Source: Streptomyces sp. NBC_00440 (GTDB taxonomy: Bacteria > Actinomycetota > Actinomycetes > Streptomycetales > Streptomycetaceae). From it: a stretch of DNA of 64,000 bases. Made by a program: the position numbers and the translations under genes. This document shows, piece by piece, positions 17,668 through 34,933 of the stretch (positions are counted from its first letter, which is position 1; each line of letters opens with the position of its first letter). Under the pieces are notes generated by a model. That model saw only the letters and a list, made by a program, of their open reading frames with translations, made no database searches and was not told the DNA's origin. The stretch lies in NCBI RefSeq assembly GCF_036014215.1, contig NZ_CP107921.1, forward strand, positions 6,507,501 to 6,571,500. Direction: 5' to 3'.

Positions 17668-17668
17668 C

Positions 17669-18008: not shown

Positions 18009-18012
18009 GGGA

Positions 18013-19117
18013 TGAGGAGCCGGAAGGTGTGCTCCACGTCGAAGCGGCGGAGAAAGGAGCGCCAGCACCGGTCAACGTCCTTCGTGGCGGCACCGGTGCC
18101 CGACCACCACAGCCAGACGGGCTTGTTCACCCCGCCGCTGGGCAGCTTCTCGACCGACAGGCGGATCACAGTGCCCTCGATGATCGGCAGCGGGCCCTCG
18201 TGGTCACCCCATGCCGCCCGGCGGGGCAGCCGGGGATGCAGCCGGTCCCAGGCCAGCGCGGTCGCAGTCCCGTATCGGTCGGTGTTCGTGACGGTGACCG
18301 CGTCCGGCTCGCCCCAGGTCTCGCGGCGGCCGAAGACGAACTCGCCGCCGTGTTTGGGCGGGCGGCCACCCTGCGGCGGGCAGATCCATGGCACCGGAAC
18401 GGGCTTGCGCATCACCCGGTCCGAGCGGAGCCGGCCCAGCACCTCGACAGGCAGGTCGTTGAGGAGGTGAGCGATACGGGGTGCGTCGTATCCGGCATCG
18501 AGCACGACCAGGACGTCCAGATCGCACTCCTGCCACTGGCCGGCTTCCACGAGACGTTCAATGACGGCACGGACCTGGTGGGCGGTGACTGCGGCCAGGT
18601 CGGCGCCGGGCTCCAGCCGGATCGCGTCGAGCAGCGCGGTCCACGACGTGCGGCCGGTCTCCAGGGCGGCAACGATCGAGTAGGGCCAGCCGGGGACCAT
18701 CTGGTGCTTGCCCAGGCCGCGGCCGAAGGTGTGGCAGAAGGAGCGGTCCGAGCAGGTGTCGGCGTCCGGCCGCAGCCACGGGGAGACGTCCACGGCCAAC
18801 ACCAGCCGGCCGTCGCTCGCCCGGGGCAACGGCACACCTGCCAGCGCGCGACGAAGCCGGGCGACGTCGATCCGGCCCCGGTTGATCCCGGAGTACAGGG
18901 CTCCGTGCCCGCGCCGGTGTTCCGGCGCGAGCGCCAGGTCCACGAGGGTGCGGACCGGTCCGTCGGTGCACAGCAACGCGTCGCACAAGTCAAACAGGGC
19001 ATCCGACCGCGCTGTCAGGCACGCGTACAGCTCCGATCGGAACCCCGACACCATCGCGAACGCATCTCGTTGGACGCTGTGCTCGACCAGTCCCACGATC
19101 CCGGCCTCCGTACTCAA
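18013..19117 (-). pseudogene. DDE transposase (NF041680-like), C-terminally truncated
   Basis: About 365 residues of a DDE transposase starting MSTEAGIVGLVEHSVQRDAF. Candidate catalytic residues are visible: the Asp in LVLAVDVSPWLRPDA, the Asp in LDVLVVLDAGYDAPRI and the Glu in RRFDVEHTFRLL. After HTFRLL the family sequence stops at the junction near 18013 and the open frame continues as antisense of the IS5-like fragment, so the C-terminal domain is lost. I recall this family as common in streptomycetes. The element is probably dead; terminal repeats were not identified. Confidence 0.75.
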
Positions 19118-20271: not shown

Positions 20272-20988
20272 CTAAGCGGCGCCCTCCGGAACCGCACCGT
20301 GCCGCCGGCCCTCGATCGACTCGATGCGCGCGGCCTGGTCGTCGGTGAGCACGTCGCAGACCCAGTCCCAGTGCAGCGCCACCCGGTCGCCGGGGGACAC
20401 CCCGGCGATCAGCGACCTGCCGCCGGTCGACCAGCGGACCTGCTCCCGCCGGGGCGGCGCCGGTACGAACACCTTCCCGTCCCAGCTCAGCGGACGGGAC
20501 TCCACGGTCGCCGACTCACCGTCGACGCCGACGACCACGCCCGTACGGATACGGCACTGGTCGAGCACCGACAGCGCGACCGGGCTGCCGCCTGCGCGCA
20601 GCAGGGCCGCCCACGGGTACACGTCGAACACCTGGAAGCTGTGGTGGGGGACGGCCCGGTGCGCCGCCTCCCGCCAGGTGCCGCCCGGCTGCCCCCGGAA
20701 CCGGTCGAGGAGGCGGTCCACCAGCGCCCCGGAGTCGGCCAGGTCCAGCAGCTCGTTGCCGATCCAGTACGCCTCCACCACCCGGACGTCGAGCGGATCC
20801 GGGATGCCCGCGGACTCCGCCAGGAATTCGAGATAGCACCAGGCACCCTCGAACTGCCGGGCCCGCTCCTCCATCCCGGCCACCGCGCCGGGGTGCAGCA
20901 GCGCCGCGGCGTCGTCCGGACCGCAGTAGCCGAGTTCGTTGGGGGGATAGGCGTATCGCGCGAACAGCAGCGCGCCCTCGGCGCTCAT
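20272..20988 (-). CDS. Hydrogenase-cluster protein of unknown function (DUF6390-like)
   Basis: A 238-residue soluble protein beginning MSAEGALLFARYAYPPNELGYCGP. It has no signal peptide or membrane helix. Notable features are GYCGPDDAAALL, a Trp-rich middle (EGAWCYLEFLAESAGI, EAYWIGNELLD), HHSFQVFDVYPWAALLRAGG, and a C-terminal RVALHWDWVCDVLTDDQA, which could be a small barrel. Its ATG follows the hypE stop directly (TGAATG), so it is the last gene of the hydrogenase run. I recall it as the actinobacterial family DUF6390 that travels with group 1h hydrogenases; a maturation or assembly role is inferred from context only. Confidence 0.7.
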   Translation of the reverse strand: MSAEGALLFARYAYPPNELGYCGPDDAAALLHPGAVAGMEERARQFEGAWCYLEFLAESAGIPDPLDVRVVEAYWIGNELLDLADSGALVDRLLDRFRGQPGGTWREAAHRAVPHHSFQVFDVYPWAALLRAGGSPVALSVLDQCRIRTGVVVGVDGESATVESRPLSWDGKVFVPAPPRREQVRWSTGGRSLIAGVSPGDRVALHWDWVCDVLTDDQAARIESIEGRRHGAVPEGAA

Positions 20989-22068
20989 TCAGCAGATCCG
21001 GGGCAGCTGCTCGCCGATCGGCAGCCCGACCACCCGGCTGCCGCCGAGCCCGGTCCTGGCCACCACCATCCCGGCGTGGTCCGGGACGCAGGTGCCGATC
21101 CGGCAGGCCGAGCGGCCCAGGGGGTGGGCGCGGAGCGCCGCGAGGACCTGGTCGGCGCTCTCACCGGGAACCACCGCGATCAGCTTGCCCTCGTTGGCCA
21201 CCTGCAGCGGGTCGAGCCCCAGCAGACTGCACGCGTCGTGCACCGTCTCCGGGACCGGCAACTCCCGCTCCACCAGCTCGATACCGACATCCGAAGCACG
21301 GGCGATCTCGTTCAGTGAGGCCGCGACACCGCCACGGGTCGGGTCCCGCAGTACATGCAGATCCGCACCTGTGGCGATCATGTCGGCGACGAGACCGTGC
21401 AGCGCTGCCGTGTCGCTCTCGACGGTCGTGCCGAACTCAAGCCCGTCCCGGCAGCTCATCACCGCCACCCCGTGCACGCCGATGTCACCGCTGACGAGCA
21501 CCGCGTCACCGGGGCGCGCACGGCGCGGGCCGATGTCGACGCCGTCGGGCACCACACCGATCCCGGAGGTGTTGATGAAGACGCCGTCACCGCTGGCGCT
21601 GTCGACGACCTTGGTGTCCCCGGTGACCAGCTGAACCCCCGCGGACCGCGCCGCAGCTCCCAACGCCTCGGCGATTCGGCCGAGTTCATCGAGCGCGGTC
21701 CCCTCCTGGAGGATAAAGGCCGTCGAGAGGAACAGCGGGACCGCGCCCGACATCGCGAGGTCGTTCACCGTCCCGTTCACGGCCAGATCGCCGATCGACC
21801 CGCCGGGGAAGAACATCGGCTTCACCACATAGGAGTCGGTGGAGAAGGCGAGCCGGGGGCCGCCACCGACCGACAGCACGGCGGAGTCGCCCAGTTCGGC
21901 CGCGGCCGCCGCGCCGTACGCGGGCAGGAACAGATGCTCGATCAACTCGCCCGACATCGCGCCGCCGCCCCCGTGGCCCATCACCACGGACGGCGTCTCG
22001 CCCAGCGGGACCGGACAGACCCAGCTCTCGAAGTCGAGCTCGGCGGGGGACTGCATCGCTTCGGTCAC
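20989..22068 (-). CDS. hypE: Hydrogenase maturation protein HypE (carbamoyl dehydratase)
   Basis: A 359-residue member of the PurM/AIR-synthetase fold. HypE dehydrates a carbamoyl group on its terminal cysteine to a thiocyanate, giving the CN ligands of the NiFe site with HypF and HypD. The mandatory C-terminus PRIC is present. N-terminal [20 protein letters not shown] and [20 protein letters not shown] are family signatures, and ATP-site motifs such as GDTKVVDS and [10 protein letters not shown] follow. The GTG at 22068 overlaps the hypD stop as GTGA; an ATG at 22056 is the alternative. It is immediately followed by the DUF6390-like gene. Confidence 0.95.
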
Positions 22069-23168
22069 TTGGCTTCGACCAGTTCCAGTCGGCGGTATGT
22101 GTGGTAGGCGGCGCAGGCGCCCTCGGATGACACCATCGTGGCGCCCAGCGGGTTGCGCGGGGTGCACTCCTTGCCGAAGGCCGCGCACTCATGCGGTTTG
22201 ATCAGGCCCTGGAGAACCTCTCCCGACCGGCACAGGGCCGACTCGGCCGTATGGATACCGGTCACGTCGAAGCGCTGCTCCGCGTCGAACTCGGCGTAAC
22301 CGGGCGCCAGCCGCCAGCCGCTGCGCGGGATCATTCCGATGCCGCGCCACGTCCGGTCGGTCACCTCGAAGACATCCCGCAGCATCTCCATGGCGGGCAG
22401 GTTGCCCTCCTCGCGTACGGCGCGGGGGTAGGCGTTCTCCACTTCGTGGCGGCCCTCTTCGAGCTGGACGACCGTGCGCCGGATGCCTTCGAGGATGTCC
22501 AGCGGCTCGAAGCCGGTGACGACGATCGGCACCCGGTACTTCTCCGCCAGCGGTGGGTACTCCGCCGTGCCCATCACGCTGCACACGTGCCCGGCGGCCA
22601 GGAAGGCCTGCACCCGGCAGGTGGCGGACTCCATGATCGCCGAGATCGCGGGCGGCACCAGGACATGGGAGACCAGCAGGGAGAAGTTCCGTACCCCCAG
22701 GCGCTTGGCCTGGTACACGGTCATGGCGTTGGCCGGGGCCGTGGTCTCGAAGCCGATCCCGAAGAAGACGACCTCCCGGTCCGGGTTCTCCCGGGCCAGC
22801 TTCAGCGCGTCGAGCGGCGAGTACACCACCCGGACGTCGCCTCCGGCGCTCTTCACCGAGAACAGGTCCTGGCTGCTGCCCGGCACCCGGAGCATGTCAC
22901 CGAACGAGCAGAAGATGACCCCGGGCCTGGCCGCGATGGCGAGCGCCCGGTCGATGATCTCCAGCGGGGTGACACAGACCGGGCAGCCCGGTCCGTGGAT
23001 CAGCTCGACGCCGTCGGGCAGCAGCTGGTCGATGCCGTGCCGGATGATCGAATGGGTCTGGCCGCCGCAGACCTCCATCATGGCCCACGGCCGAGTGGTC
23101 GCCGCGTGGATCTGTTCGAGCAGCCTCTTGGCCGACTCGGGGTTGCTGAACTCGTCGAGATACTTCAC
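22065..23168 (-). CDS. hypD: Hydrogenase maturation protein HypD
   Basis: A 367-residue iron-sulfur scaffold on which, with HypC, the Fe(CN)2CO unit is assembled. Conserved blocks are [44 protein letters not shown], and the C-terminal cysteines in [20 protein letters not shown] that help bind the [4Fe-4S] cluster. Length is standard. Its ATG overlaps the hypC stop (ATGA) and its stop overlaps hypE (GTGA), so hypC, hypD and hypE are coupled. Confidence 0.97.
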
Positions 23169-23467
23169 CGGCCGACTCCTTCGGGGAACTCCTGCTGCCC
23201 GGCCCGTGCGGCGAGTTCGAAACCGTCTCCGAACTCCTCCTCCAGGATGCCGAGCCTGTCGAAATCGGCCAGCGTCCGCCGGGCCGACTCCTCGTCGAGC
23301 CGCTGAATGGCGAACCCGACATGTACGACGACGTACTCACCGGCCGTCACATCCGGGATGTACTGGAGGCACACCTCTTTGCGCACCCCGCCGAAGTCGA
23401 CATCGGCCATCAACGTGCCGTCGACCTCGGCGGTACTGAGGACGCGCCCCGGAACTGCCAGACACAT
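23165..23467 (-). CDS. hypC: Hydrogenase maturation chaperone HypC (stand-alone copy)
   Basis: A 100-residue HypC/HupF chaperone with the invariant MCLAVPGRV start (Cys2 binds the iron unit), a small barrel ([34 protein letters not shown]) and a C-terminal helix. It carries the iron fragment between HypD and the large-subunit precursor. Overlap with hypD suggests a stable HypC-HypD pair. This is the second HypC domain in the island: another is fused to HypF just upstream. The C-terminal 20 residues extend beyond the usual 75-90-residue form. Confidence 0.95.
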
Positions 23468-23508: not shown

Positions 23509-23519
23509 GTACGGATGGC

Positions 23520-23571
23520 TTGGCACGGATGACCTGGCGCGGATGATCTGGCGCGGATGACCTGGCGTACG
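23520..23571. repeat. 14-bp tandem repeat (C/T)TGGCGCGGATGA(C/T)
   Basis: Units start at 23520, 23534 and 23548, with a partial fourth at 23562. Together with the neighbouring GTGGATCCC array it fills the 108-base gap between the HypC-HypF gene and hypC, the largest gap in the distal part of the hydrogenase run and one where translational coupling is broken. Confidence 0.8.
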
Positions 23572-23575
23572 AGGG

Positions 23576-26203
23576 TCAGCCCGACGCGGCGATCAGGAGT
23601 TGCCCCAGAGCGATTCCCCCGTCGTTCGGGGGCAGGAGTCTCGGCCGCAGCACCCTGAAGTCCGCTGCTTCCAGGCCGTGTTGGACCGCCCCGAGCAGTA
23701 CGGCGTTCTGGAAGACGCCACCGCCGAGAGCCACCACCCCGAGCCCCGTGCGGGCGCGTGCGAGCTCGGCGAGGGAGACCGTCAGGGCGGCGACGCAGGC
23801 GTGGAACCGCGCCGCGATCAGCTCGGCCGGCACCCCGGCCCGTACGTCCGAGACCACCGCGCGCACGACCGGCCCCGGGTCGGCGACGAGAGGCTGCCCG
23901 TCCACCGCTTCCCGGATCCCGAAGGAGTACCGGCCGTCCGCACCCGCTCCGTCCGGCCCGGCCGACCTGGCCAGCCCTTCGAGGCCGATCGCGGCCTCGG
24001 CCTCGTACTCCACCTCGTGCCGGACCCCGGCCAGCGAGGCCACGGCGTCGAAGAGCCTGCCCATGCTGGACGTCGGCACACAGCCGAACCCGGTACCGAA
24101 CTGATGGGCCAGCACGTCCCGTTCCCTCGGCGGGCACGCCCGTACGGACGGCAGCCCCTCGTCCCAGGCGACCCCGGCCGCACGGAGGTGGGCCAGCGCC
24201 ATCCGGTACGGCCGCAGCACACTCGCGTCGCCGCCCGCCAGCGGTACGTACCCCAGGTGCGCCGCCCGCTCGAACGACTTGTAGCCGGCGATCAGCACCT
24301 CGCCGCCCCACGCGGCCCCGTCCGTACCGGCGCCCGTGCCGTCGAAGGCGACACCGATCACACTCTCGTCCGCCCCGATGCCGTGCTCGCCCATGACCGA
24401 GGCGACATGGGCGTGGTGGTGCTGCACCCGCCGCACCGGCCGGGACCCCGAGTGCGCCACGGCCCAGGCGCCCGACCGGTAGCCGGGGTGCAGATCGGCC
24501 ACCAGCTGAGCGGGCTCGACCCCGGTGATCCGCTCCAGCTGCCGCTCGGTCCTGGTCAGCGCGTCGGCCGTGGCGAGGTCGTCCATGTCGCCGATGTGCT
24601 GGCTGACCCAGGCGTACCGCCCGTCGCCGAGCGCGCAGGTGTTCTTGAGATCCGCGCCGACCGCGAGGAGCGGTGGTACCTCGAAGGGCAGCGCCAACGG
24701 CAGCGGGGCGTACCCGCGGGACCGGCGCAGCGGAAGCTCCGCGCCCGCCACGAAACGGCTGACCGAGTCGTCGCAGGGCACCTCGATCCGCCGGTCGTGC
24801 CGCAGCCAGGCATCGGCCAGCGGCGCAAGACCGGTGAGGGCCGCGGCGTCGTCGGTGACGATCGGCTCACCCGCCAGGTTGGCCGAGGTCATCACCAGCG
24901 CGTCGGGGCCCGGCCGGTCGTCCCCGATACCGAAGAGCAGGACGTGCAGAGGCGTGTACGGGAGCATCAGACCCAGATCCGGGCTGCCCGGCGCCACCGA
25001 CGAGGAGACCCCGGCCCCCTCCGGCGTCCCGCGCCGCGGCAGGAGCACGATCGGCCTGCGGACCCCGGTCAGCAGCCGCTCCTCGTCGCCGGTCAGCGTC
25101 ACCAGTTCCGCCGCCACAGCGGTGTCCGCGACCATCACCGCGAAGGGCTTCCCACCGCGCCGCTTGCGCCGCCGCAGCTCGGCCACCGCCGTGTCGTTGC
25201 GGGCGTCACACGCGAGGTGGTAGCCGCCGAGCCCCTTCACCGCGACGATCCGGCCATCGGCCAGCAGCTCCCGGGCTCCCCGCAACGCGTCCTCGCCGCT
25301 CGCCGCCGGCGCCCCGTCCTTGCGGACCAGTTCGAGAGCGGGCCCGCACGCGTGGCAGGCGACCGGCTGGGCGTGGAAGCGGCGGTCGCCCGGATCGCCG
25401 TACTCCGCCCGGCAGTCGGCGCACATCTCGAACGCGGCCATCGTGGTGGCCGCCCGGTCGTACGGCACACCGGTGACGATGGTGAACCGGGGGCCGCAGT
25501 GGGTGCAGGTGATGAAGGGATGGCGGTAGCGGCGGTTCGCCGGATCGCGCATCTCGGCCAGGCACTCCCGGCACGTCGCGACATCCGGCGAGACCAGAGT
25601 GCGGGCGGGCCCCTCGCCACGGGACTCCCCGATGGTGAACTCCGTCCCGCCCAGGGGCGACAGGTCCGACTCGTGGACGGACTCGACCACGGCGAGCACC
25701 GGCGCGTCCGTCCGCAGCCTCCTGCCGAATTCGGCCACCGCCGCTGCGCCGCCCTCGACTTCGGCGACCACACCGGAGCCGGTGTTCACCACCGTTCCGC
25801 TGAGGGCGAGTTCGCGCGCGCTGACGTAGACGAAGGGCCGGAAGCCGACCCCCTGGACCACACCGTGCACCTTGAAGCGCCGCCGCAGCCGGTGCTCAGC
25901 GGGTGCACCGGGCGCAGACTCGGCGGGCGTCGCCTCACCGGGAGTCGCTTCACCGGGCGCGGGTTCCTCGTCGCGGGCGCGGCCCATCATCTCCAGGCCG
26001 GAGAGCGCCTCCCCGGCCTTCGCCGCGTCGATGACCTCCAGCGCGAAGCCCATATGGAGAAGCACCCAGTCGCCGTCGGCCGGAGGAGAGTCGAGCATCC
26101 CGACATTGATGCGCCGCCGCGCGCCCTCGACATCGACGAGCGCGAGCTGACCGGCATATCCGTCGACGAGCTCCACGACCCGGCCCGGAATGCCAAGGCA
26201 CAT
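23576..26203 (-). CDS. hypF: HypC-HypF fusion: hydrogenase maturation chaperone and carbamoyltransferase
   Basis: One 875-residue frame with two maturation proteins. Residues 1-78 are a full HypC domain (MCLGIPGRVVELVDGYAGQL, GDWVLLHMGFALEVIDA). Residues 79-103 are a low-complexity linker with the repeat PGEATPGEATPAE. From about 106 comes complete HypF: acylphosphatase (KVHGVVQGVGFRPFVY), zinc fingers (CRECLAEM, CTHCGPRF, CADCRAEY, CHACGP), YrdC-like domain (GGYHLACDARND, KRRGGKPFAVMV, TSANLAGEPI) and Kae1-like domain (HHHAHVASVM, ALGGGVFQN). HypF makes the carbamoyl group that becomes cyanide. AGGAGG overlaps the protease gene end, two bases upstream. HypF alone is about 770 residues, so the extra length is the HypC part. 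Confidence 0.93.
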   Translation of the reverse strand: MCLGIPGRVVELVDGYAGQLALVDVEGARRRINVGMLDSPPADGDWVLLHMGFALEVIDAAKAGEALSGLEMMGRARDEEPAPGEATPGEATPAESAPGAPAEHRLRRRFKVHGVVQGVGFRPFVYVSARELALSGTVVNTGSGVVAEVEGGAAAVAEFGRRLRTDAPVLAVVESVHESDLSPLGGTEFTIGESRGEGPARTLVSPDVATCRECLAEMRDPANRRYRHPFITCTHCGPRFTIVTGVPYDRAATTMAAFEMCADCRAEYGDPGDRRFHAQPVACHACGPALELVRKDGAPAASGEDALRGARELLADGRIVAVKGLGGYHLACDARNDTAVAELRRRKRRGGKPFAVMVADTAVAAELVTLTGDEERLLTGVRRPIVLLPRRGTPEGAGVSSSVAPGSPDLGLMLPYTPLHVLLFGIGDDRPGPDALVMTSANLAGEPIVTDDAAALTGLAPLADAWLRHDRRIEVPCDDSVSRFVAGAELPLRRSRGYAPLPLALPFEVPPLLAVGADLKNTCALGDGRYAWVSQHIGDMDDLATADALTRTERQLERITGVEPAQLVADLHPGYRSGAWAVAHSGSRPVRRVQHHHAHVASVMGEHGIGADESVIGVAFDGTGAGTDGAAWGGEVLIAGYKSFERAAHLGYVPLAGGDASVLRPYRMALAHLRAAGVAWDEGLPSVRACPPRERDVLAHQFGTGFGCVPTSSMGRLFDAVASLAGVRHEVEYEAEAAIGLEGLARSAGPDGAGADGRYSFGIREAVDGQPLVADPGPVVRAVVSDVRAGVPAELIAARFHACVAALTVSLAELARARTGLGVVALGGGVFQNAVLLGAVQHGLEAADFRVLRPRLLPPNDGGIALGQLLIAASG

Positions 26204-26205: not shown

Positions 26206-26709
26206 TCAGGACCTCCTGGTCGGGGCGGGCTCGGCGGGCAGCAGCCGGTCCACCAGAATCCGTACGGCGTCCATGGCCGCGGGCACCGCCGCGAGGACCG
26301 CGCGGCTGAGCCCGATGCCCTCACCGACGTCGGCGGGGGTGCAGCCCACGACGTAGGTGGACGGAAGGGTACCGCCCAGTTGTTCCAGATTTGCCAGCAC
26401 TGCTACCGGATTCATGCCATGTGCGTCGAATTCACCCGAACCGAGGTCGTCAGGACCCACTTCGAGTACGGTCACCTCGCCGGGCGGCCCCCCGCCCGGG
26501 CAGGCGTCGACCAGCACCAGCGCGTCGTACCCGTCCAGCAGGTCGTACGCGAGGTGCATGCCCCGGATTCCGTAGTCCACGACGCGGACGCCGGGCGGCA
26601 GTGAGCCCGCGCCGGTGAGTGCGCGGACCACCTCGGGGCCGAAGCCGTCGTCGCTCAGGAAGAGGTTGCCGACCCCGGCGATCAGGACGCGATCCGTCAC
26701 CGGCGCCAC
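26206..26709 (-). CDS. Hydrogenase maturation endopeptidase (HyaD/HupD family)
   Basis: A 167-residue protease that removes the C-terminal tail of the large subunit once nickel is in place. GVGNLFLSDDGFGPEVVRAL contains the first metal-binding acid of the family, VLVDACPGG the second (Asp in the LVDA motif), and EFDAHGMNP the conserved His of the nickel-recognition site. It lies directly upstream of the HypC-HypF gene, whose ribosome site overlaps its end. Its substrate must be HhyL in this island. Confidence 0.92.
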   Translation of the reverse strand: MAPVTDRVLIAGVGNLFLSDDGFGPEVVRALTGAGSLPPGVRVVDYGIRGMHLAYDLLDGYDALVLVDACPGGGPPGEVTVLEVGPDDLGSGEFDAHGMNPVAVLANLEQLGGTLPSTYVVGCTPADVGEGIGLSRAVLAAVPAAMDAVRILVDRLLPAEPAPTRRS

Positions 26710-26752: not shown

Positions 26753-26872
26753 TCACATCGAACGCATTCGCAGATACCGGCGGATGTCCGGGATCGACTG
26801 GACTCCCACGGCCACAGCGGCTGCCACCAGAACTGCGCCCGCGACTGCGGTGATCACGCCAAGGGTCTTCAC
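26753..26872 (-). CDS. DUF6893-like small membrane protein (39 aa)
   Basis: A 39-residue protein, MKTLGVITAVAGAVLVAAAV then AVGVQSIPDIRRYLRMRSM. One hydrophobic helix (about residues 5-25) is followed by a basic amphipathic tail. The GTG start at 26872 has GAGGAG upstream and overlaps the 474-residue gene as GTGA, so it is translated with the hydrogenase genes. The pattern helix-SIPDIRRYLRMR is what I recall as DUF6893, a tiny actinobacterial family usually overlooked by gene callers. A role as membrane anchor or regulator of the cytosolic hydrogenase is speculation. Confidence 0.8.
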   Translation of the reverse strand: MKTLGVITAVAGAVLVAAAVAVGVQSIPDIRRYLRMRSM

Positions 26873-28293
26873 GATGGGCTCTCCTCTCGGTTTTCGAGGG
26901 TGGTCCCGACGGGCAGGGGCTCCAGCTCGTCGGGGGCGAAATAGAAGTAACGGCCGTACCAGTCGTGCATGTCCGCCGCCGGATCGTCGACGAGGACCAG
27001 GGCGACATGCGTCCCGCCGTCGACGTCCGAGAGCACCGCGGTCACCCGCGCCACCTGACCGGCGAAGAAGAGGTCCTGGGCGTCCGCGCGGCGCGAGGGG
27101 TGCACCCGCACCAGGCTGCCCTGCGAGACGCTGACGCCGTTGATCACCACCGCGTCGGACGACGGACGCACGGCCGCGTCCGAAGCGGGGTCCCACCAGG
27201 GCGCGCCGCCGGTGTCGAACCCGGGCGGCTCACTGTCCCGGAGGTCGGCGTTCAGCGGTGGCAGCGAGCCGGGCACCGCTGCCGCGTGCGGTTCGCGCAG
27301 CAGACCGTGCAACTGCTGGAGATCCGCGGCGGACATGGCGTCGCAGCGTTCGATGATCTCCCTGGCCCGTGGGTCGGTGGCCCGCGCCTCTGCCTTCTCC
27401 TGCTCGGTCATGGTCATGACCCGCAAGGTCAGGATCTCGTCGATCTCGGTGGAGTCGAAGAGGGCACCCGGGCTCTGTTCGGCCACCTCCGGGTAGTCGT
27501 AGAGGATGATCGGCGCGCCCAGGACGGTGTCCGCCGAGCCCTCGGCACCGGCCAGCACCGGCCAGCATCTGCGCTGCCGGCAGCGGGCGGCGGCGGCTAC
27601 CGCGTGCTCCGGCGGTTCGAGCAGCGAGACGAACGCGCCGCCGTGCGCCCGCAGGATCAGATGCGCTCCGATCAGCGAGCTGCGGATCGCCTCGTCCTTG
27701 GATCCGGGCGTCCCCGGGTGCTCGTTGACCACGGCGAGGGACAGCCGGAGCAGACCGTCGTCGGCGGTGGCGCCCACCCGGATCCGGAGGTCCAGCGGAA
27801 GCCGGCGCCGTACGATCCGGCCGACCGGTGCGCCGTCCGCGTCCGTCAGCTGCTCCCTCTCCTCGCCGCCGGGCACCGTGCGCCGCACATCGGCCGGCTC
27901 CGTGAGGGAGAGCGCGGGCAGCACGATCTCCTGCTCGACCGCCTCCTCCCAGCTCAGCACCTGGGCGCCGTCGACGGTCAGTTCGGCGACCGGGGTGTGG
28001 CCGCCGTCCGCCTCGCGCCGCTGCACCTCACGCACCTGCACCTGGAGGAAGCGCAGATGAACCGTGACCGCGGTGGGCGACCCGTCCGGGGCCAGCAGGC
28101 ACTCCATCGCCATGTCCGGCTCCTCGCCGAAGCAGGCGGGCGCCGCGGACGGCGGCCCCAGCACCCCGAACTGCCAGCGTGACTGGTTCTTGTGGGAGCT
28201 GGCCCGGTACGGGTACAGCAGATACCCCTCGTACAGCACCGCGTCGGCGACCGTACGGACGTGGTCCAGGCTCGGGGCGTTCACGGGGGTCAC
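26869..28293 (-). CDS. Hydrogenase-island protein of unknown function (474 aa)
   Basis: A large soluble protein beginning VTPVNAPSLDHVRTVADAVL and YEGYLLYPYRASSHKNQSRW, with GTG at 28293 overlapping the previous stop as GTGA. It lacks membrane helices and signal peptide. The first half is beta-rich (for example VTVHLRFLQVQVREVQRREA and PLDLRIRVGA). The middle holds RSSLIGAHLILRAHGGAFVS and PIILYDYPEVAEQSPGALFD, then EIDEILTLRVMTMTEQEKAE. The C-terminus has an SH3-like VNGVSVSQGSLVRVHPSRRA, ending near DWYGRYFYFAPDELEPLP. I recognise no enzyme motif. Position between DUF6084-like and DUF6893-like genes marks it as a hydrogenase-linked factor. Confidence 0.75.
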   Translation of the reverse strand: MTPVNAPSLDHVRTVADAVLYEGYLLYPYRASSHKNQSRWQFGVLGPPSAAPACFGEEPDMAMECLLAPDGSPTAVTVHLRFLQVQVREVQRREADGGHTPVAELTVDGAQVLSWEEAVEQEIVLPALSLTEPADVRRTVPGGEEREQLTDADGAPVGRIVRRRLPLDLRIRVGATADDGLLRLSLAVVNEHPGTPGSKDEAIRSSLIGAHLILRAHGGAFVSLLEPPEHAVAAAARCRQRRCWPVLAGAEGSADTVLGAPIILYDYPEVAEQSPGALFDSTEIDEILTLRVMTMTEQEKAEARATDPRAREIIERCDAMSAADLQQLHGLLREPHAAAVPGSLPPLNADLRDSEPPGFDTGGAPWWDPASDAAVRPSSDAVVINGVSVSQGSLVRVHPSRRADAQDLFFAGQVARVTAVLSDVDGGTHVALVLVDDPAADMHDWYGRYFYFAPDELEPLPVGTTLENREESPS

Positions 28294-28946
28294 TGGACCA
28301 CCTCTCCGGTCTCGGCCAGCAGGGTGCGGACCGTCTCTTCCCAGCTGATCAGCCCGTGCCGGGCGCGGAAGCCGGCGAACTCGGTGATGACGTCGTGGTC
28401 GAGCCTGATCCACCCGGCGTTCGGGTAGTGGGCGGCGATCATCTCCCGCCATACCGCGACGGGCATCGGATGACGGGCCTCGCAGTCCCAGGGCACCTGC
28501 CGTACGCCGAAGCCGGCGCTGCCCTTGGTGAAGACGGTGCCCGAGAAGAGCAGGGTGAGCGGGACCGCGCCCTCGCCGAGTGCGTGCAGATACCGCGAGC
28601 CGGTCACGTCGAAGTCATAGGTGCAGGGCAGCGCGAGGTCGACCTCGGTGGCGCCGGTGAACCCCTGGACCGTGGTGTTGCACTGCATCCAGAGGAACGG
28701 CCGCAGGGTGTCCGCCCACCGGGACCGCTCCCCGAACAGCCCGCGCAGGCCCTCCTCCTCGGCCTTGTCGTACGAACGGCGCTGCGGTTCGATACGGACC
28801 TGGCACTGCAGGACGATCGCGTGGATCCGCTCGCCGCTGCTCTCCTCGATCCGCAGCCGGGCCGTCAACTGGGGCGCCGCAGCGTACCGTTCGGCCACCA
28901 CATCGAGCACCGAGAAGTCCAGTACGGAGAAGTCCGTGCCGCTCAC
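28290..28946 (-). CDS. Hydrogenase-island protein of unknown function (DUF6084-like, 218 aa)
   Basis: Soluble, beta-rich 218-residue protein. The start contains a tandem FSVLDFSVLD, reflecting a 15-base DNA duplication at 28905-28935. Then follow RLRIEESSGERIHAIVLQCQ, RPFLWMQCNTTVQGFTGATE and LPCTYDFDVTGSRYLHAL, resembling an immunoglobulin-like or C2-like sandwich, and a helical tail with HYPNAGWIRLDHDVITEFAG. The family name is from memory and moderately sure. It overlaps its neighbours on both sides (ATGA and GTGA), so it is made in step with the hydrogenase. Confidence 0.75.
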   Translation of the reverse strand: MSGTDFSVLDFSVLDVVAERYAAAPQLTARLRIEESSGERIHAIVLQCQVRIEPQRRSYDKAEEEGLRGLFGERSRWADTLRPFLWMQCNTTVQGFTGATEVDLALPCTYDFDVTGSRYLHALGEGAVPLTLLFSGTVFTKGSAGFGVRQVPWDCEARHPMPVAVWREMIAAHYPNAGWIRLDHDVITEFAGFRARHGLISWEETVRTLLAETGEVVQ

Positions 28947-29596
28947 GAGACCCCCTCCGCCGGGACGGTCCTGCTGCGGTCCCGCACCTGGTCGAAGAAG
29001 GCGTCCATCGCCGCGTGCGCCTCACGGCCGCCGTCGAAGCCGCGCCACAGCGTCCGCAGCCGGCCGACCAGCTCGTAGCAGGCGTCGACCGGGACCAGAT
29101 GGCACGAGCCGTCGCCGGTGCCGGGCCGGCGGATCAGCAGCGCCTCCACGTCGGGACGCAGCACCGCGAGCGCGGGCGCCGACGCGACGATGGAGTCCCA
29201 GGCTTCCAGCGGAAGTTCGGACTCGGTGGCGCCCGCGGGCCCGGGGTAGAACGCGACCGTGCGGCCCTGCACCGAGTTGCGGAAGAGGAACGCCAGACCC
29301 ACCGGGATCTGGAGTTCGTCCCAGGCCCGTGCGTCCAGCGGCACTCCGTCGAAGCGGAGATACCGTTCCGGCACCGCCCGGTAGCGCTGTCGCGCGTCCT
29401 CCTCGGTGAAGAGGAGATAGCAGGCGCGGCAGCTGCACATCAGCGCGCGGCTCTCCAGGTTCACCACGTGCGAGTGCTCGGGGGCGACCGGCTCCGCGCA
29501 CATCTCGCAGCGTTCCCCGGCCGCCGGCTGCGGACGGTTGCGGGTGATCCGCCGCAGCGCGGACACCGGGGTCGCCGTCCGGCCCGGGGCGCTCAC
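28943..29596 (-). CDS. Cysteine-rich hydrogenase-island protein (DUF5947-like)
   Basis: A 217-residue protein with an N-terminal metal-binding module: ERCEMCAEPVAPEHSHVVNL then ALMCSCRACYLLF, giving Cys30, Cys33, Cys54, Cys56 and Cys59 with nearby His41 and His43. This could hold zinc or an iron-sulfur cluster. The rest includes YRAVPERYLRFDGVPLDARA and IPVGLAFLFRNSVQGRTVAF. I recall the family as DUF5947, known only from hydrogenase clusters. The GTG at 29596 overlaps the NifU/Rieske-like stop. A role in electron transfer or cluster delivery is inferred from the cysteines and the neighbour. Confidence 0.75.
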   Translation of the reverse strand: MSAPGRTATPVSALRRITRNRPQPAAGERCEMCAEPVAPEHSHVVNLESRALMCSCRACYLLFTEEDARQRYRAVPERYLRFDGVPLDARAWDELQIPVGLAFLFRNSVQGRTVAFYPGPAGATESELPLEAWDSIVASAPALAVLRPDVEALLIRRPGTGDGSCHLVPVDACYELVGRLRTLWRGFDGGREAHAAMDAFFDQVRDRSRTVPAEGVS

Positions 29597-30537
29597 GCGG
29601 AGACCGGGGCGGGCACCGCGACGGAGACCGTCGGGCCGTCCACGAGCAGGGGCAGCGGGTCCAGATGCAGCCCGTCGGCGTCGAGGCAGGCACCGGCCCG
29701 CCGTACGTCGTAGTGCGCACGGCAGCCGGGGCACCGCAGCACGGCGTCAGCAGCCCCGCCGCCCAGCCGCCGGGCCAGTGCGGCGCCCTCCAGGGACCGG
29801 TCGCACCGGGCACACCAGTCACGGAAGGCGAACAGGTCGGCGCCGATCCGGCAGGCCAGTACCGGGACCGCGCCCGCGGTGAAGTGCCGTACGCCACCGG
29901 GCTCCAGGGCCTCCAGTCCGGGCACGGCCTCCCAGGACGAACCGCCGTCGCCGGGAGCCGACGCCGCCTCGTGGAGCCGGGAGAACAGCGAGTCCACCGT
30001 GACCAGCGGTCCGGGTTCCCCCGTCCCGTCCTCGGCGGGTGCCTCCACCTCGATCCCGGTGATCTCCGGGGCCGCGGCCTCGACGGCGCTCTGCACGGCC
30101 AGCTTGAGGGTGGCCGACGACGAGGGGCACCCGTCGCAGCTGCCGAGCAGCCGCAGGGTGACGACCCCGTCCGCCGTGACGCCCAGCAGTTCCACATCGC
30201 CGCCGTGCGAACCCAGATACGGCCGGACGCTCTCCAGCGCCTCCTCGACCCTGGTCTCCACGCCGTACGGGTGCAGCCCGTGCACCAGCAGCAGACTGGC
30301 CACCAGATCGTCGGCCGCCAGGGCCGCCAGCACCTCGTCGTCCAGCCGGCCCTGCTCGTGCACCAGGTCGAGCAGCCGTTCGAGCCCGGCGCCGTAGAAG
30401 TCCGTGACGAGCCGGACCAGTTCCTCGCTCCGCTCGCGGGCCACGGCGCCGCCCGCCGCGCTGGCGGCGATCAGCATGTCGATGCGGTCGCCGGTGGCCC
30501 GCCAGTCGGTGGGCCCGGACGCGGTCTCCTCCGCCAT
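29593..30537 (-). CDS. NifU-like/Rieske-like fusion, probable hydrogenase electron-transfer or Fe-S protein
   Basis: A 314-residue protein in three parts. Residues about 15-90 are helical. Residues about 92-165 are a NifU C-terminal domain with the cluster-binding motif GSCDGCPSSSATLK (Cys134, Cys137). Residues about 203-305 are laid out like a Rieske domain, but the expected C-x-H and C-x2-H motifs read DWCARCDRSL and RCPGCRAHYD. Four cysteines (242, 245, 269, 272) therefore replace the two-Cys two-His set, favouring a rubredoxin-like, zinc or all-Cys cluster over a classical Rieske centre. It overlaps hhyL by one base (TGATG), as expected for a partner of the large subunit. Confidence 0.85.
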   Translation of the reverse strand: MAEETASGPTDWRATGDRIDMLIAASAAGGAVARERSEELVRLVTDFYGAGLERLLDLVHEQGRLDDEVLAALAADDLVASLLLVHGLHPYGVETRVEEALESVRPYLGSHGGDVELLGVTADGVVTLRLLGSCDGCPSSSATLKLAVQSAVEAAAPEITGIEVEAPAEDGTGEPGPLVTVDSLFSRLHEAASAPGDGGSSWEAVPGLEALEPGGVRHFTAGAVPVLACRIGADLFAFRDWCARCDRSLEGAALARRLGGGAADAVLRCPGCRAHYDVRRAGACLDADGLHLDPLPLLVDGPTVSVAVPAPVSA

Positions 30538-32330
30538 CACTCGCTGCCCGCGGACTGGGTGGGGGAGTGCAGCAGTTCCAGCTTCTTGCCCTCGCCGAGA
30601 TACATGTGCACTCCGCAGGGGAGACAGGGGTCGAAGCTGCGCACCGTGCGCATGATGTCGATCCCCTTGAAGTGCTCCCGGTCGTTCTCCTCGAAGATCG
30701 GCTGGCCCTGCACCGCGTCCTCGTACGGCCCCGGCGTACCGAAGGTGTCGCGGGGGCTCGCGTTCCAGGGGGTCGGCGGGTACGGGTGGTAGTTGGCGAT
30801 CTTGCCGTCCCGGATCACCATGTGGTGCGAGAGCACACCGCGCACCGCCTCGGTGAAGCCGCAGCCGACGCCCTCCTCCGGTACCTCGAACTTCTCCCAG
30901 GTCTTCGTCCGGCCAGCCCGGATCTCCACGAGCGCCTTCTCCGCGAAGTGCAGCGCGCAGGCGGCCGCGTACGCCTGGAAGTAGGTGCGCGCCCGGTTGC
31001 GCTCGATCGTGTTGCTCCACTTCGGGACGTGCCACTCCAGCTCGACCGGGCCCTTGAGCGCGGTCTTCGGGAGGTTGATCTTGACGCTGTTCCCGGTGGA
31101 CTGGACGTACCCGATGTCGACGAGCCCGGCCAGCGCGGTGGTCCACAGCCGGGCCAGCGGGCCGCCGCCGGTGTCGAGGGCGAGATAGTCCTTGCCGTCG
31201 AACCAGCGTGGCGACATGACCCAGCTGTACTTGTCGTCCAGATCCCGCTTCTGCGGCTGCGGGTTGGTGTGCTGGTTCCACGGGTGCCTGCGGTCGACCG
31301 GGTTTCCGAGCGGGTCGTGGGTCACGAACATCTCCTGCTCCTCCCAGTCGCCGTAGTACGACGAGCCGAGGAGGATCCGGATGCCCAGGTTGATCTTCAC
31401 CAGGTCGGTGGTGACCAGCTTCCCGTCCACGACCACACCGGGGGTGACGTACATCTTCCGTCCCCACTCGGTCATGTCCTGGTACTTGAAGTTGCAGTAC
31501 TCCGGGTCCTGGAACGAGCCCCAGCAGCCCAGCAGGATGCGCCGGTTGCCGACCTGCTCGTAGCCGGGCAGCGCCTCGTAGAAGAAGTCGAAGAGGTCGT
31601 CGTGCATCGGCACGACCTTCTTCATGAACTCGACGTAGCGCTGGAGCCGGGTGATGTAGTCCGTCATCAGCTGCACGGTCGCCACGGTGCCCACGCCGCC
31701 CGGGTAGAGCGTGGAGGGGTGTACGTGCCTGCCCTCCATGAGGCAGAACATCTCCCGGGTCATCCGGCTGACCTGGAGCGCCTCGCGGTAGAACTCACCG
31801 GTGAAGGGGTTCAGCGAGCGCATGATGTCGCCGATGGTCTTGTACCCGTGGTCCTCGGCGTGCGGTGACGGGGTGCGGTTGGCCTGCTCCAGCACGCCCG
31901 GGTTGGTCTCCGCCACCATCTTCTCGCAGTAGTCCACCCCGACCAGGTTCTCCTGGAAGATGTTGTGGTCGAACATGTACTCCGCGGCCTCGCCGAGGTT
32001 GACGATCCACTCACCGATGTGCGGCGGCTTCACCCCGTACGCCATGTTCTGCGCATAGCAGGAACACGTGGCGTGGTTGTCTCCGCAGATACCGCAGATG
32101 CGGCTGGTGATGAAGTGCGCGTCGCGCGGGTCCTTGCCCTTCATGAAGACCGAGTAGCCGCGGAAGATGGAGCTGGTGCTGTGGCACTCGGCCACCACCT
32201 TCTGCTTGAAATCGATCTTCGTGTAGATGCCCAGGCTGCCGACGATGCGGGTGATGGGGTCCCACGCCATCTCGACAAGGCCGTCCTTGCCCTGTTTCCC
32301 GCTGCCACCCCTGCGTTGCGTCGCGGTCAT
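30537..32330 (-). CDS. hhyL: [NiFe]-hydrogenase group 1h large subunit
   Basis: Catalytic subunit of 597 residues that splits atmospheric H2. The two nickel-binding motifs are present: RICGICGDNH (Cys79, Cys82) near the N-terminus and DPCLPCGVH (Cys569, Cys572, His575) near the end. The last 22 residues after His575 are the tail to be cut off by the endopeptidase gene in this island. The start MTATQRRGGSGKQGKDGLVE has GAGGCGG upstream. The high-affinity group 1h (old group 5) assignment rests on the DPCLPCGVHMYLG end, the small-subunit features and the gene set. It lies 34 bases after hhyS. Confidence 0.97.
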   Translation of the reverse strand: MTATQRRGGSGKQGKDGLVEMAWDPITRIVGSLGIYTKIDFKQKVVAECHSTSSIFRGYSVFMKGKDPRDAHFITSRICGICGDNHATCSCYAQNMAYGVKPPHIGEWIVNLGEAAEYMFDHNIFQENLVGVDYCEKMVAETNPGVLEQANRTPSPHAEDHGYKTIGDIMRSLNPFTGEFYREALQVSRMTREMFCLMEGRHVHPSTLYPGGVGTVATVQLMTDYITRLQRYVEFMKKVVPMHDDLFDFFYEALPGYEQVGNRRILLGCWGSFQDPEYCNFKYQDMTEWGRKMYVTPGVVVDGKLVTTDLVKINLGIRILLGSSYYGDWEEQEMFVTHDPLGNPVDRRHPWNQHTNPQPQKRDLDDKYSWVMSPRWFDGKDYLALDTGGGPLARLWTTALAGLVDIGYVQSTGNSVKINLPKTALKGPVELEWHVPKWSNTIERNRARTYFQAYAAACALHFAEKALVEIRAGRTKTWEKFEVPEEGVGCGFTEAVRGVLSHHMVIRDGKIANYHPYPPTPWNASPRDTFGTPGPYEDAVQGQPIFEENDREHFKGIDIMRTVRSFDPCLPCGVHMYLGEGKKLELLHSPTQSAGSE

Positions 32331-32364: not shown

Positions 32365-33420
32365 TTACCAGTTGCGGGTGGCGCCGGTCGTGAGAGTCCT
32401 GCCGGGCCTGCGCCACTTCGGCTCCTGGTCCAGCGTGTGAGTGGTCATATGGCGCAGCCGGCGCATGGTCGCGCCGTACAGTCCGACCGCGTTCGACGAG
32501 AGTTTCCCGCCGGGCGGCTCATCCATGAACGGCATGAACTTGTCCGGGAATCCCGGCATGGTGCAGCCGATGCAGATTCCGCCGACGTTGGGGCAGCCGC
32601 CGATACCGTTCATCCAGCCGCGCTTCGGCACATTGCACTTGACCGTGGGTCCCCAGCAGCCGAGTTTGACAATGCACTTCGGCGATCCGTATTCGGTGGC
32701 GAAATCACCCTGCTCGTAGTAGCCGGCCCTGTCGCACCCCTCATGGACCGTCTGTCCGAACAGCCAGGAAGGGCGCAGCGCGTCATCGAGCGGAATCATC
32801 GGGGCCTGATCGGTGGCCATGTAGAGCAGATAGGTCAGTGTCTCGGACAGGTTGTCCGGCTGGATCGGGCATCCGGGGACGCACACGATCGGAATTCCCG
32901 CCTTGGACTTCCAGTCCCAGCCCAGGTAGTCGGGCACTCCCATCGCACCTGTCGGGTTGCCCGACATGGCATGGATACCGCCGTAGGTCGCGCAGGTCCC
33001 GACCGCGACGATCGCGGTGGCCTTCGGCGCCAGCCGGTCGATCCACTCGCTGGTGGTCATCGGCTGTCCGGTGGCGGGGTCGTTGCCGAAGCCGCACCAG
33101 TAGCCCTCGTCGTGCAACTGCTCGTTGGGGATCGACCCCTCCACGACCAGGACGAACGGCTCCAGCTCTCCTCGGTCGGCCTTGAAGAACCACTCAAGGA
33201 AGTCGTCGGCGCCGCCGGTCGGCCCGCACTCGAAGTCGATGAGCGGCCAGTGCACCGCGACCTGGGGGAGGCCGGGCAGGGCGCCGAGCGCGATCTCCTC
33301 GATGCTGGGCTGAGTGGCCGCCGTCAGGGCCACGGAATCGCCGTCACAACTGAGTCCGGCATTGATCCAGAGAACGTGGATCAGCGTCTCTTCTGCCTTT
33401 ACCGCTGCTTCTGTCGGCAT
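32365..33420 (-). CDS. hhyS: [NiFe]-hydrogenase group 1h small subunit
   Basis: A 351-residue electron-transfer subunit with three iron-sulfur clusters. The proximal motif is GLSCDGDSVAL: Cys25 and Asp28 replace the usual C-x2-C, matching the three-Cys one-Asp proximal cluster known for group 1h enzymes. Other cluster ligands lie in VGTCATYGG, VPGCPIQPDN, CDRAGYYE, KCIVKLGCWGPTVKCNVP and GGCPNVGGICIGCTMPGFPD. There is no Tat signal peptide, unlike most group 1 small subunits. The ATG at 33420 is preferred because GGAAGGCGG precedes it; an in-frame ATG at 33453 would add 11 residues. Confidence 0.95.
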   Translation of the reverse strand: MPTEAAVKAEETLIHVLWINAGLSCDGDSVALTAATQPSIEEIALGALPGLPQVAVHWPLIDFECGPTGGADDFLEWFFKADRGELEPFVLVVEGSIPNEQLHDEGYWCGFGNDPATGQPMTTSEWIDRLAPKATAIVAVGTCATYGGIHAMSGNPTGAMGVPDYLGWDWKSKAGIPIVCVPGCPIQPDNLSETLTYLLYMATDQAPMIPLDDALRPSWLFGQTVHEGCDRAGYYEQGDFATEYGSPKCIVKLGCWGPTVKCNVPKRGWMNGIGGCPNVGGICIGCTMPGFPDKFMPFMDEPPGGKLSSNAVGLYGATMRRLRHMTTHTLDQEPKWRRPGRTLTTGATRNW

Positions 33421-33515
33421 AGCACTGCCGCCTTCCGGGGCCGGCGTTCCCATTCCCAGATGGCACTGGACCGGGGCGCCTGGCTCATGAGTGTGTTTTC
33501 GCTCACATTGCTACC

Positions 33516-33544: not shown

Positions 33545-33773
33545 CGCGAGAAGAAATCCGTATGAGCGGCCTCGGACCGTGCCATTCGGCGGTGCGAACG
33601 CCGGATGTGAACCGGCAGGACAGAACTGGCGGGGGTTTCCGGGTGCGACCTGACGCGGATTGCGCCGGTCGAATGAAACCGGAATGGGAAAAGGGCCGAC
33701 CGAATCAACCGTAAGAGGCACGCCCGGGTTTCAGGTCCTACGGTCGTGCCACCGATGCGGGAACGAGGCAGAG
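33545..33773. other. Regulatory gap between hhyS and hypA
   Basis: About 230 bases of non-coding DNA separate the predicted hhyS promoter from hypA. It must hold the promoter for hypA-hypB, but I could not single out a convincing -35/-10 pair or operator on the plus strand. The purine-rich stretch at 33675-33700 is the most distinctive part. Confidence 0.5.
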
Positions 33774-34103
33774 ATGCATGAATTATCGATCACGCAGAGC
33801 GTCGTCGACATGGTCTGCGAACGCGCCGAAGGCAGACCGGTCCGCACGGTCAGGGTGCGGGTCGGTGTGCTCACGGCGGTCGTGGCCGAGTCGATGCGGT
33901 TCTGCTTCGACCTGATCACGGCGGGCACGGTGGCCGAGGGCGCGCGACTGGAGATCGACCAGCCTCCGGGAGCGGCGCGCTGCCGTACCTGCGAACAGGA
34001 CTTCGCCCTGCCCGATCCCGTACTGCTCTGTCCGTGCGGCAGCGCCGACGTGGAGATCACGTCGGGGCGTGAACTGCAGATCATCTCGATGAAAGTGGGC
34101 TGA
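33774..34103 (+). CDS. hypA: Hydrogenase nickel-insertion protein HypA
   Basis: A 109-residue metallochaperone that with HypB loads nickel into HhyL. The N-terminal MHELSIT carries the nickel-binding His2. The zinc site is CRTC (Cys70, Cys73) and CPCG (Cys86, Cys88); the second pair is one residue tighter than the usual C-x2-C. GAGG precedes the ATG. hypB follows after two bases, so the pair is co-translated, and both are transcribed away from hhyS. Confidence 0.95.
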   Translation: MHELSITQSVVDMVCERAEGRPVRTVRVRVGVLTAVVAESMRFCFDLITAGTVAEGARLEIDQPPGAARCRTCEQDFALPDPVLLCPCGSADVEITSGRELQIISMKVG

Positions 34104-34105: not shown

Positions 34106-34933
34106 ATGTGCGGTACCTGCGGTTGCGGTGACGAGGGCGGCGGTACGCGGATTTCCCTGCCCCACGAGGAGCACACACGGGCCACCGGCCGTCCGCACCA
34201 CAGCCATGACCAGAGCCACAGTCACAGCCATGACCAGGGCCGCCACGACCACGAGGGCGCCCACGACACCGGCGAGACAGTCACTCTTGAGCAGCGGGTG
34301 CTCGCCAAGAACGAGCTCCAGGCGGAGCAGAACCGTGCCTGGCTCGCCGAGCGGCACATCGTGGCGGTCAATCTGATGAGTTCGCCCGGCGCGGGCAAGA
34401 CCACCCTGCTGGAGCGCACCATCAGGGACTTCTCCGGACGGCGTCCGGTGGCCGTGGTCGAGGGCGACCAGGAGACCATGCTCGACGCCGAGCGCATCAA
34501 GCGCGCCGGATGCGCCGTGGTGCAGGTGAACACGGGCGCCGGCTGCCACCTCGACGCCGAGATGATGCAGGGTGCTCTCACGGCCCTCGCTCCGGAAAGG
34601 GGAGCGCTGGTCCTGGTGGAGAACGTGGGGAACCTGGTGTGCCCGGCTCTCTTCGACCTGGGTGAGAGCAGCCGGATCGTCATCATCTCGGTCACCGAGG
34701 GCACCGACAAGCCGCTCAAGTACCCCTATATGTTCGGCGCCGCCGATCTGGTCCTCATCAACAAGGCGGATCTGCTGCCTTACGTCGACTTCGACGTGGC
34801 CCGGTGCGAGGCGTACGCGCGCTCGGTCAACCCGGACGTACGGGTGCTGACGGTGTCCGCGACGACGGGCGAGGGGATGGACCAGTGGTACGCGTGGGTG
34901 GCGGCGCTGGACGACCGGATGCTCCTGAGCTGA
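34106..34933 (+). CDS. hypB: Hydrogenase nickel-insertion GTPase HypB
   Basis: A 275-residue SIMIBI GTPase. The start MCGTCGCGDE gives the high-affinity nickel CxxCGC motif. Residues 30-53 are a His/Asp-rich nickel store (HHSHDQSHSHSHDQGRHDHE). The P-loop is SSPGAGKTT (residues 92-100), followed by VVEGDQETMLDAERI and the specificity motif NKADLLPY. It supplies GTP-dependent nickel delivery with HypA. The His-rich stretch suggests nickel storage as well as transfer. Confidence 0.97.
   Translation: MCGTCGCGDEGGGTRISLPHEEHTRATGRPHHSHDQSHSHSHDQGRHDHEGAHDTGETVTLEQRVLAKNELQAEQNRAWLAERHIVAVNLMSSPGAGKTTLLERTIRDFSGRRPVAVVEGDQETMLDAERIKRAGCAVVQVNTGAGCHLDAEMMQGALTALAPERGALVLVENVGNLVCPALFDLGESSRIVIISVTEGTDKPLKYPYMFGAADLVLINKADLLPYVDFDVARCEAYARSVNPDVRVLTVSATTGEGMDQWYAWVAALDDRMLLS

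Follow-up and report, generated by a model that had tools for sequence, protein, structure and literature searches.

The window analysed here, a stretch of 64,000 nucleotides from Streptomyces sp. NBC_00440 (contig NZ_CP107921.1), contains a [NiFe]-hydrogenase operon with its maturation genes. The features relevant to this analysis are as follows, in the order of their coordinates.

20272..20988, minus strand: DUF6390 protein, whose C-terminal part (residues about 143-233) resembles HypC
20989..22188, minus strand: hypE open reading frame (ORF), with a profile match from residue 68 and the C-terminus PRIC
22065..23168, minus strand: hypD
23165..23467, minus strand: free hypC (HypC2), 100 amino acids, PF01455 at 91 bits, directly before hypD
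23576..26203, minus strand: hypC1-hypF fusion gene, 875 amino acids plus stop, recognized by Pfam and NCBIfam
23579..25879, minus strand: HypF part of the fusion (residues 109-875), with acylphosphatase, zinc-finger, YrdC-like and Kae1-like domains, the last with HHHAH
25880..25978, minus strand: linker of the fusion (residues 76-108), rich in Pro, Glu, Ala and Thr, marked by low pLDDT and a 15-bp repeat
25979..26203, minus strand: HypC1 domain of the fusion (residues 1-75), with N-terminal Met-Cys2 and an LLHMGFA motif containing His50
26206..26709, minus strand: hydrogenase maturation protease (HycI family), upstream of the fusion
26869..28452, minus strand: 527-codon ORF, conserved in hhy operons, without a Pfam or NCBIfam match
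28290..28946, minus strand: DUF6084
28943..29734, minus strand: DUF5947
30537..32330, minus strand: HhyL, group 1h [NiFe]-hydrogenase large subunit, matching HofG (5aa5)
32365..33453, minus strand: HhyS, small subunit
33660..34103, plus strand: hypA, divergent
34106..34933, plus strand: hypB (CobW/HypB/UreG family), divergent

The operon was assigned to group 1h by its large subunit, which is of the HofG/HhyL type; the best solved relative of HhyL is HofG (5aa5; 1071.8 bits, versus 169.9 bits for the next chain). We take HofG to be a group 1h ('actinobacterial-type') enzyme, and the hydrogenase served by the operon presumably belongs to the group used for trace-H2 scavenging.

The fusion gene is read without interruption over 875 codons of the minus strand, from an ATG at 26203 to a TGA at 23576-23578. 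The start codon lies 2 nt past the stop of the protease gene, and an AGGAGG is found 8 nt 5' of it. The plus strand is likewise open over 23576..26203, as a shadow frame; the initial annotation had left the strand unstated. At its N-terminus, the encoded protein matches HupF_HypC (PF01455) at residues 1-68 (69.5 bits; Pfam cut-off, 28.5) and TIGR00074, hypC (66.9 bits; NCBIfam cut-off, 48), and Cys2 and His50 are invariant in the alignments. A structure-chain comparison also matched this domain with the HypC chains of Thermococcus kodakarensis (2z1c) and Escherichia coli (2ot2), to which it is alike in its full length, Cys2 and His motif, but from which it differs in being covalently N-terminal to HypF and in being encoded beside the protease gene rather than hypD. 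By the curated cut-offs, Cys2 and the His, HypC1 is a member of the HypC/HybG/HupF family. The remainder consists of an acylphosphatase domain (residues 109-191), HypF zinc fingers in two stretches, a YrdC-like domain (residues 313-494), HypF_C (residues 510-606) and HypF_C_2 (residues 617-868) in Pfam, and scores 715.1 bits over residues 111-872 against TIGR00143, hypF (NCBIfam cut-off, 466.1). It therefore carries all domains of a HypF carbamoyltransferase, differing from other HypF proteins by the preceding HypC and linker. Pfam and NCBIfam thus agree with the initial annotation, which had described a full HypC, a linker and a full HypF in one frame. Two HypC matches were found in its own genome, and a whole-protein search of it gave one HypF, the fused one.

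The second HypC match is HypC2, and the initial annotation had correctly placed a free HypC next to hypD. HypC1 and HypC2 share 29% identity over 79 residues and lie in different gene neighbourhoods, for which reasons an origin of the fusion from a duplicated free HypC was rejected. It had further been suggested that the two HypC domains may have different partners; their genomic partners do differ, HypC1 going with the group 1h operon and the protease gene, and HypC2 with hypF, hypD and hypE.

To survey the fusion among relatives, the first 110 residues were used to query 5.8 billion proteins, with hits restricted in length to 0.55-1.75 times that of the fusion (E, 1e-3), which gave 205 proteins; all of the 120 listed carry PF01455 and HypF domains. 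A second search (E, 0.01) with an Actinoplanes relative as the query gave 249 proteins, 120 of which were listed. At least 177 further HypC-HypF proteins are thus listed, from many genomes and metagenomes. The carriers identified by name belong to Streptomyces, Actinacidiphila, Actinoplanes, Paractinoplanes, Asanoa, Couchioplanes and Phytohabitans, that is, to Streptomycetaceae and several Micromonosporaceae, to which the genome scan described below added Nocardioidaceae. In the set of 178 fused proteins (that of the window, P0002, plus 177 listed hits), one of the hits, P0003, is identical to the window's own at 871 of 875 positions. The HypC Cys motif and the acylphosphatase motif are present in all 178, with the Cys at position 2 in 172. 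The H-x-GFA motif is found in 176, the remaining two retaining the His, and HHHAH likewise in 176, the exceptions being P0009 (without PF22521) and P0121 (546 amino acids). Since an identical architecture recurs across many assemblies, chance is excluded, and the HypC-HypF fusion is confirmed as real. Both outcomes that the initial annotation had named as fatal to it, a sequencing error and the absence of the fusion from all close relatives, are countered by these fused relatives. The fusion is uncommon in the class, because, of 178 genomes sampled across it, only the window has a HypC1 match of at least 60 bits in a frame longer than 429 amino acids; in a phylum sample, among the matches listed, a match over residues 1-875 was found in the window's genome only. 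Fused sequences are already present in public databases with both domains marked by Pfam, and the named entries are mostly annotated as carbamoyltransferase HypF. A literature search, with subscription papers mostly outside its reach, found no description of a HypC-HypF fusion, and the terms HypC-HypF, HypF-HypC and HypCF occurred in the text only as a primer name and the label of an intergenic region.

The linker comprises 33-38 residues in the window's fusion and is underlain by a DNA repeat at 25906-25959 (15-bp unit, 3.6 copies, 74% matches). In the AlphaFold2 model, pLDDT is below 50 across residues 68-102, and the linker is probably disordered or flexible; residues 197-258 and 267-282 of the zinc-finger region are also below 50, so that low pLDDT is not peculiar to the linker. 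The HypC part was modeled with moderate confidence (block pLDDT, 57-78). Linker length, counted between the end of the GLEMMG-like motif and the acylphosphatase motif, was measurable in 176 fused proteins and ranges from 11 to 186 residues with a median of 13, compared with 38 in the window. In 120 of the 176, the HypC helix motif ends 10-19 residues ahead of the acylphosphatase motif. Because the joint is short and variable elsewhere, the repeat linker is best seen as a local expansion: the repeat pointed out in the initial annotation is present in the window, but it does not characterize the fusion in general. With such a spread of lengths, a role of the repeat linker as a functional element is unsupported.

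The origin of the fusion was traced in 84,980 species genomes, which were scanned with a HypC1 alignment; 130 stretches matched, 120 were confirmed, and 80 loci were kept. HypC1 and HypF are fused in one frame in 42 of these loci and also in L065, which is cut by a contig end. A free HypC1 is followed by hypF in 13 loci and has DUF6390 as the next marker in 23 (10 on the same strand, 13 on the opposite strand), and in one locus HypC1 has no marker next to it. The free hypC1 genes, in 37 of the 80 loci, have 79-101 codons. In 76 loci the protease gene is found no more than 350 nt upstream of HypC1, and DUF6390 is present in 74, five of the six loci lacking it ending at a contig end. HypC1 is thus a component of a single branch of the group 1h (Hhy) operon, in which its gene usually comes directly after that of the protease. 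It is also found in operons of Arthrobacter and Blastococcus in which neither hypF nor hypD was detected in flanks of up to 10 kb. A free HypC2 is located downstream of the fusion in all 42 fused loci. HypC2 is also the type of the sole HypC in seven of eight unfused Streptomyces hhy loci examined, the eighth (L138) having a free HypC 53% identical to HypC1; the existence of Streptomyces hhy operons lacking HypC1 indicates that it is dispensable for some group 1h enzymes.

Nine of the unfused loci carry the F-C-D-E gene set (L091, L099, L102, L104, L106-L109 and L118, of which L106 and L108 are cut by a contig end). In all of them, the stop codon of hypC1 and the presumed start codon of hypF overlap by 4 nt, as ATGA in four and GTGA in five. 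As the two genes overlap in different frames, loss of the stop codon would be insufficient to join them, and a frame-changing indel would be required. In a HypF tree of 50 of 63 rows, from which 13 near-duplicate fused rows were omitted (29 of the 42 fused loci used), the 29 fused rows form one clade (SH-aLRT, 100) with one state change and no split row inside, spanning Streptomycetaceae, Micromonosporaceae and Nocardioidaceae. This monophyly makes a single fusion the simplest explanation. In an HhyL tree of 77 rows (those of the 89 state-assigned loci whose match spans 400 amino acids or more), the fused label needs three changes, because some Nocardioidaceae carry an F-E-C-D set or none there; when F-C-D-E rows alone are counted, it needs one. 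Both are quick trees without bootstrap, and the long branches of L142, L138 and L118 were flagged in the HypF tree. The two trees can be reconciled by one fusion after which the hyp set was replaced, transferred or lost, the order of these events being our reconstruction.

A rough control for the tendency of hyp genes to fuse was provided by a length-windowed search with HypC2 placed ahead of part of HypF, in which HypC2 alone was scored; the comparison is rough because the HypC1 and HypC2 queries are unequal in reach. Only 26 long proteins were obtained, and all but one of these (25) fell into singleton clusters; judged from motif positions, most have HypC2 either ahead of HypD or behind a HypF that is incomplete at its N-terminus. 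Other hyp joins are therefore rare and form no recurrent family like HypC1-HypF, and a general proneness of hyp genes to fusion is unsupported. Two individual proteins may be mentioned: P0199 (892 amino acids) is a nearly whole HypF-HypC2 join, with the acylphosphatase motif at residue 15 and the HypC motif at residue 783, and P0189 (1040 amino acids) starts with a HypC1-type motif.

The conserved neighbour DUF6390 resembles HypC in its C-terminal domain, which has a HypC barrel plus a helix, with the invariant Cys145 and His206 in register with the Cys and His of HypC. The direct matches are faint: PF01455 was not found in the window's copy and reached at best 17 bits among five copies (L077, residues 197-223; cut-off, 28.5), Foldseek gave no match at E below 0.001, HypC ranking first at 6.1e-3, and comparison of profiles gave weak probabilities of 62 for HypC1 and 17 for HypC2. 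No informative match was obtained for the N-terminal half, and no paper on DUF6390 by name was found in the literature search, mostly outside subscription papers. Thirteen of the 178 genomes sampled across the class contain DUF6390, and 11 of these 13 match the HypC1 profile with at least 60 bits; all six genomes with a match of at least 100 bits contain it; conversely, 14 of the 25 genomes with a match of at least 60 bits lack DUF6390.

Among 392 Streptomyces genomes, a query of HypC1 and the HypF N-terminus matched 228 at E 1e-5, and HhyL matched 196 at E 1e-20 or better. Among the matches listed, in which HypC1 and the close HhyL matches rank at the top, HypC1 is in frame with HypF in 11 genomes and HhyL is at least 95% identical in 11, the remaining HhyL genes being mostly 70-82% identical. 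DUF6390 is also present in 11 genomes, and these are, among the matches listed, the identical 11 in all three cases. This co-occurrence reflects one operon type inherited together and alone is no proof of interaction.

In [NiFe]-hydrogenase maturation, HypF carbamoylates the C-terminal Cys of HypE, HypE makes the thiocyanate, HypC and HypD hold the iron, and HypC-type proteins deliver Fe(CN)2CO. A second HypC-type protein besides the general HypC is also known as HupF in Rhizobium leguminosarum and HybG in E. coli; HupF is a HypC paralogue from hydrogenase clusters expressed under aerobic conditions and interacts with both HupK and the large subunit (PMC3534401), and HybG serves its client as the carrier of Fe(CN)2CO (PMC8692609). 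The division of labour among HypC-type proteins between building and delivering Fe(CN)2CO is under active study (PMC8692609, PMC9002611), and the assembly and delivery pathway is treated in PMC12130793 (see also PMC10847431, PMC2408588 and PMC13098282). HypC1 likewise is a second HypC-type gene in a structural operon besides hypC, an analogy drawn from gene position; it differs from HupF and HybG by its fusion to HypF in this clade and by its conserved neighbour DUF6390. The group 1h operon of Cupriavidus necator pHG1 (HofG, 5aa5) shares with that of the window the large subunit, DUF5947, DUF6084, the protease, hypF, hypC, hypD and hypE, but in its 20.6-kb stretch hypF is a separate gene and HypC is encoded once; neither HypC1 nor DUF6390 was matched there.

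We assign a probability of roughly 0.6 to the reading that HypC1 is a HupF/HybG-like chaperone dedicated to HhyL, which was fused to HypF by a single indel in the gene overlap and whose tether keeps it near HypF and in a fixed ratio to it. The ancestor would have had hypC1 behind the protease gene and ahead of hypF, in an order deduced from the unfused loci, with the 4-nt stop/start overlap, and an indel there, most simply occurring once, would have merged the frames. HypC1 would escort the HhyL precursor and deliver Fe(CN)2CO to HhyL in a presumably dedicated role, the free HypC2 beside hypD would serve as the general scaffold HypC, and the fused HypF would still carbamoylate HypE as usual. 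Through the flexible tether, there would be one dedicated HypC1 per HypF, and the loader would be held near the HypE/HypF end of the pathway, which may be of benefit. The N-terminal position of HypC1 leaves Cys2 free, which may explain why HypC is the N-terminal partner. The site behind the protease gene, the occurrence in operons with no hypF or hypD detected in the flanks, and the retention of HypC2 beside hypD argue that HypC1 is dedicated to HhyL, as HupF is to HupL (PMC3534401), though a role in the HypD scaffold would be just as conceivable. Given the short motif spacing in most fused proteins and the separate, overlapping genes in the sister lineages, co-translation with fixed stoichiometry would be an adequate and more modest account of what the fusion achieves.

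A relay of three HypC-type proteins may tentatively be considered, in which HypC2 works with HypD, the HypC1-HypF tether serves HhyL, and DUF6390 is a new HypC-type chaperone with an internal Cys. It is also conceivable, but unlikely, that the fusion was neutral, an indel having joined overlapping co-translated genes, with each domain still functioning as it did and no effect of the tether beyond equal amounts. Such an event would accord with the overlap seen in all nine unfused relatives, the unfused sister clades, and a linker that varies freely in length and has scattered dN/dS (0 to 2.5 with one undefined value, from only 6-17 aligned codons per pair); against it, the fused clade takes in three families and contains no split row, and the hypF-hypC2 and hypC2-hypD junctions yielded no recurrent joined family in the rough control above.

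Rather improbable is a catalytic coupling, whereby the fused HypC1 docks to HypD and HypF-HypE loads cyanide on the iron of the tethered HypC, bypassing diffusion; this is the link between cyanide synthesis and the iron carrier that the initial annotation had envisaged. HypC1 does retain Cys2 and the conserved His, hypD and hypE lie within the same operon, the linker is probably flexible, and a complex of HypC with HypD and HypE has been solved (3vys, 3vyt and 3vyu, according to the entry titles); however, HypD is already partnered by the HypC2 kept in every one of the 42 fused loci, HypC1 also occurs in the Arthrobacter and Blastococcus operons without detected hypF or hypD, and a linker of 11 to 186 residues is loosely constrained. 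HypC1 is very unlikely to be a decaying, non-functional leftover on HypF, even with a second, free HypC at hand in all 42 loci: its Cys and His are kept, and comparison with 16 fused relatives gives the HypC domain a dN/dS (NG86) of 0.08-0.36, below the HypF value (0.23-0.36) in 15 of the 16 pairs, so that the domain is maintained. Finally, a sequencing error or mis-assembly masking a stop or frameshift, for which the repetitive linker DNA as a possible error site is the sole argument, is rejected with near certainty by the at least 177 further listed proteins and the 42 whole fused frames in the 80 loci, most of them with short linkers.

Altogether, the interpretation given in the initial annotation is partly supported. 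If the three-HypC relay were true, an iron-unit loader would be mounted on the enzyme of cyanide synthesis, a carrier-on-synthase architecture. DUF6390 is a Pfam family without an assigned function, for which the present survey offers a lead as a HypC-like partner. Since HypC1 and HypC2 are labelled by covalent linkage and synteny, the question of whether HypD or HhyL is the client of each becomes directly testable in Streptomyces.

Four features lie in or near the hydrogenase operon in the window, the DUF6390 gene among them:

17178–19117, minus strand: transposase-family ORFs (Mutator, DDE), slightly past the 3' end of the operon
20272–20988, minus strand: DUF6390 gene
23512–23567: tandem repeat with a 14-bp unit, 4 copies and 88% matches, in the intergenic stretch that separates the stop codon of hypF from the free hypC
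26753–26872, minus strand: small ORF of 39 codons with a GTG start, containing a hydrophobic stretch and flanked by the 527-codon ORF on one side and the protease gene on the other

DUF6390 has no assigned function. Its C-terminal domain resembles HypC in predicted fold and motif spacing; the cysteine of DUF6390 is internal, whereas that of HypC is N-terminal. Within the genus, DUF6390 and the hypC1-hypF fusion are found in the same genomes (11 of the 392 drawn).

Two other long HypC-containing frames, each a singleton, were recovered in the database searches. One (P0189, 1040 aa) carries a HypC1-type motif at its start, and the other (P0199, 892 aa) consists of a nearly whole HypF with a HypC motif close to the C-terminus; both are either read-through products or rare second fusions.

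Doubled genes and other gene orders were also observed among the loci compared. Two different fused-gene loci are present in each of Streptomyces sp. H27-C3 (L055/L056) and Streptomyces sp. PH10-H1 (L074/L076). In seven loci of Actinoplanes/Paractinoplanes (L081, L082, L084, L085, L112, L127, and L132), a second gene for an HhyS-like small subunit, these extra genes being 65–72% identical, is located upstream of hypB, which suggests two adjacent group 1h operons. A further arrangement is seen in L138, an hhy operon from the window's genus, in which hypD and hypE follow hypA, hypF is on the opposite strand, and the free HypC shows 53% identity to HypC1. In the HhyL and HypF trees, the Rhodococcus record L118 bears a cyanobacterial family name, evidently owing to a homonym in the labels.

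In three Nocardioidaceae loci (L077, L089, and L111), the interval between hypC1 and DUF6390 is occupied by another hyp set, ~50% identical and in the order F-E-C-D. The differing set takes the same position, as if hyp cassettes had been swapped at one site.
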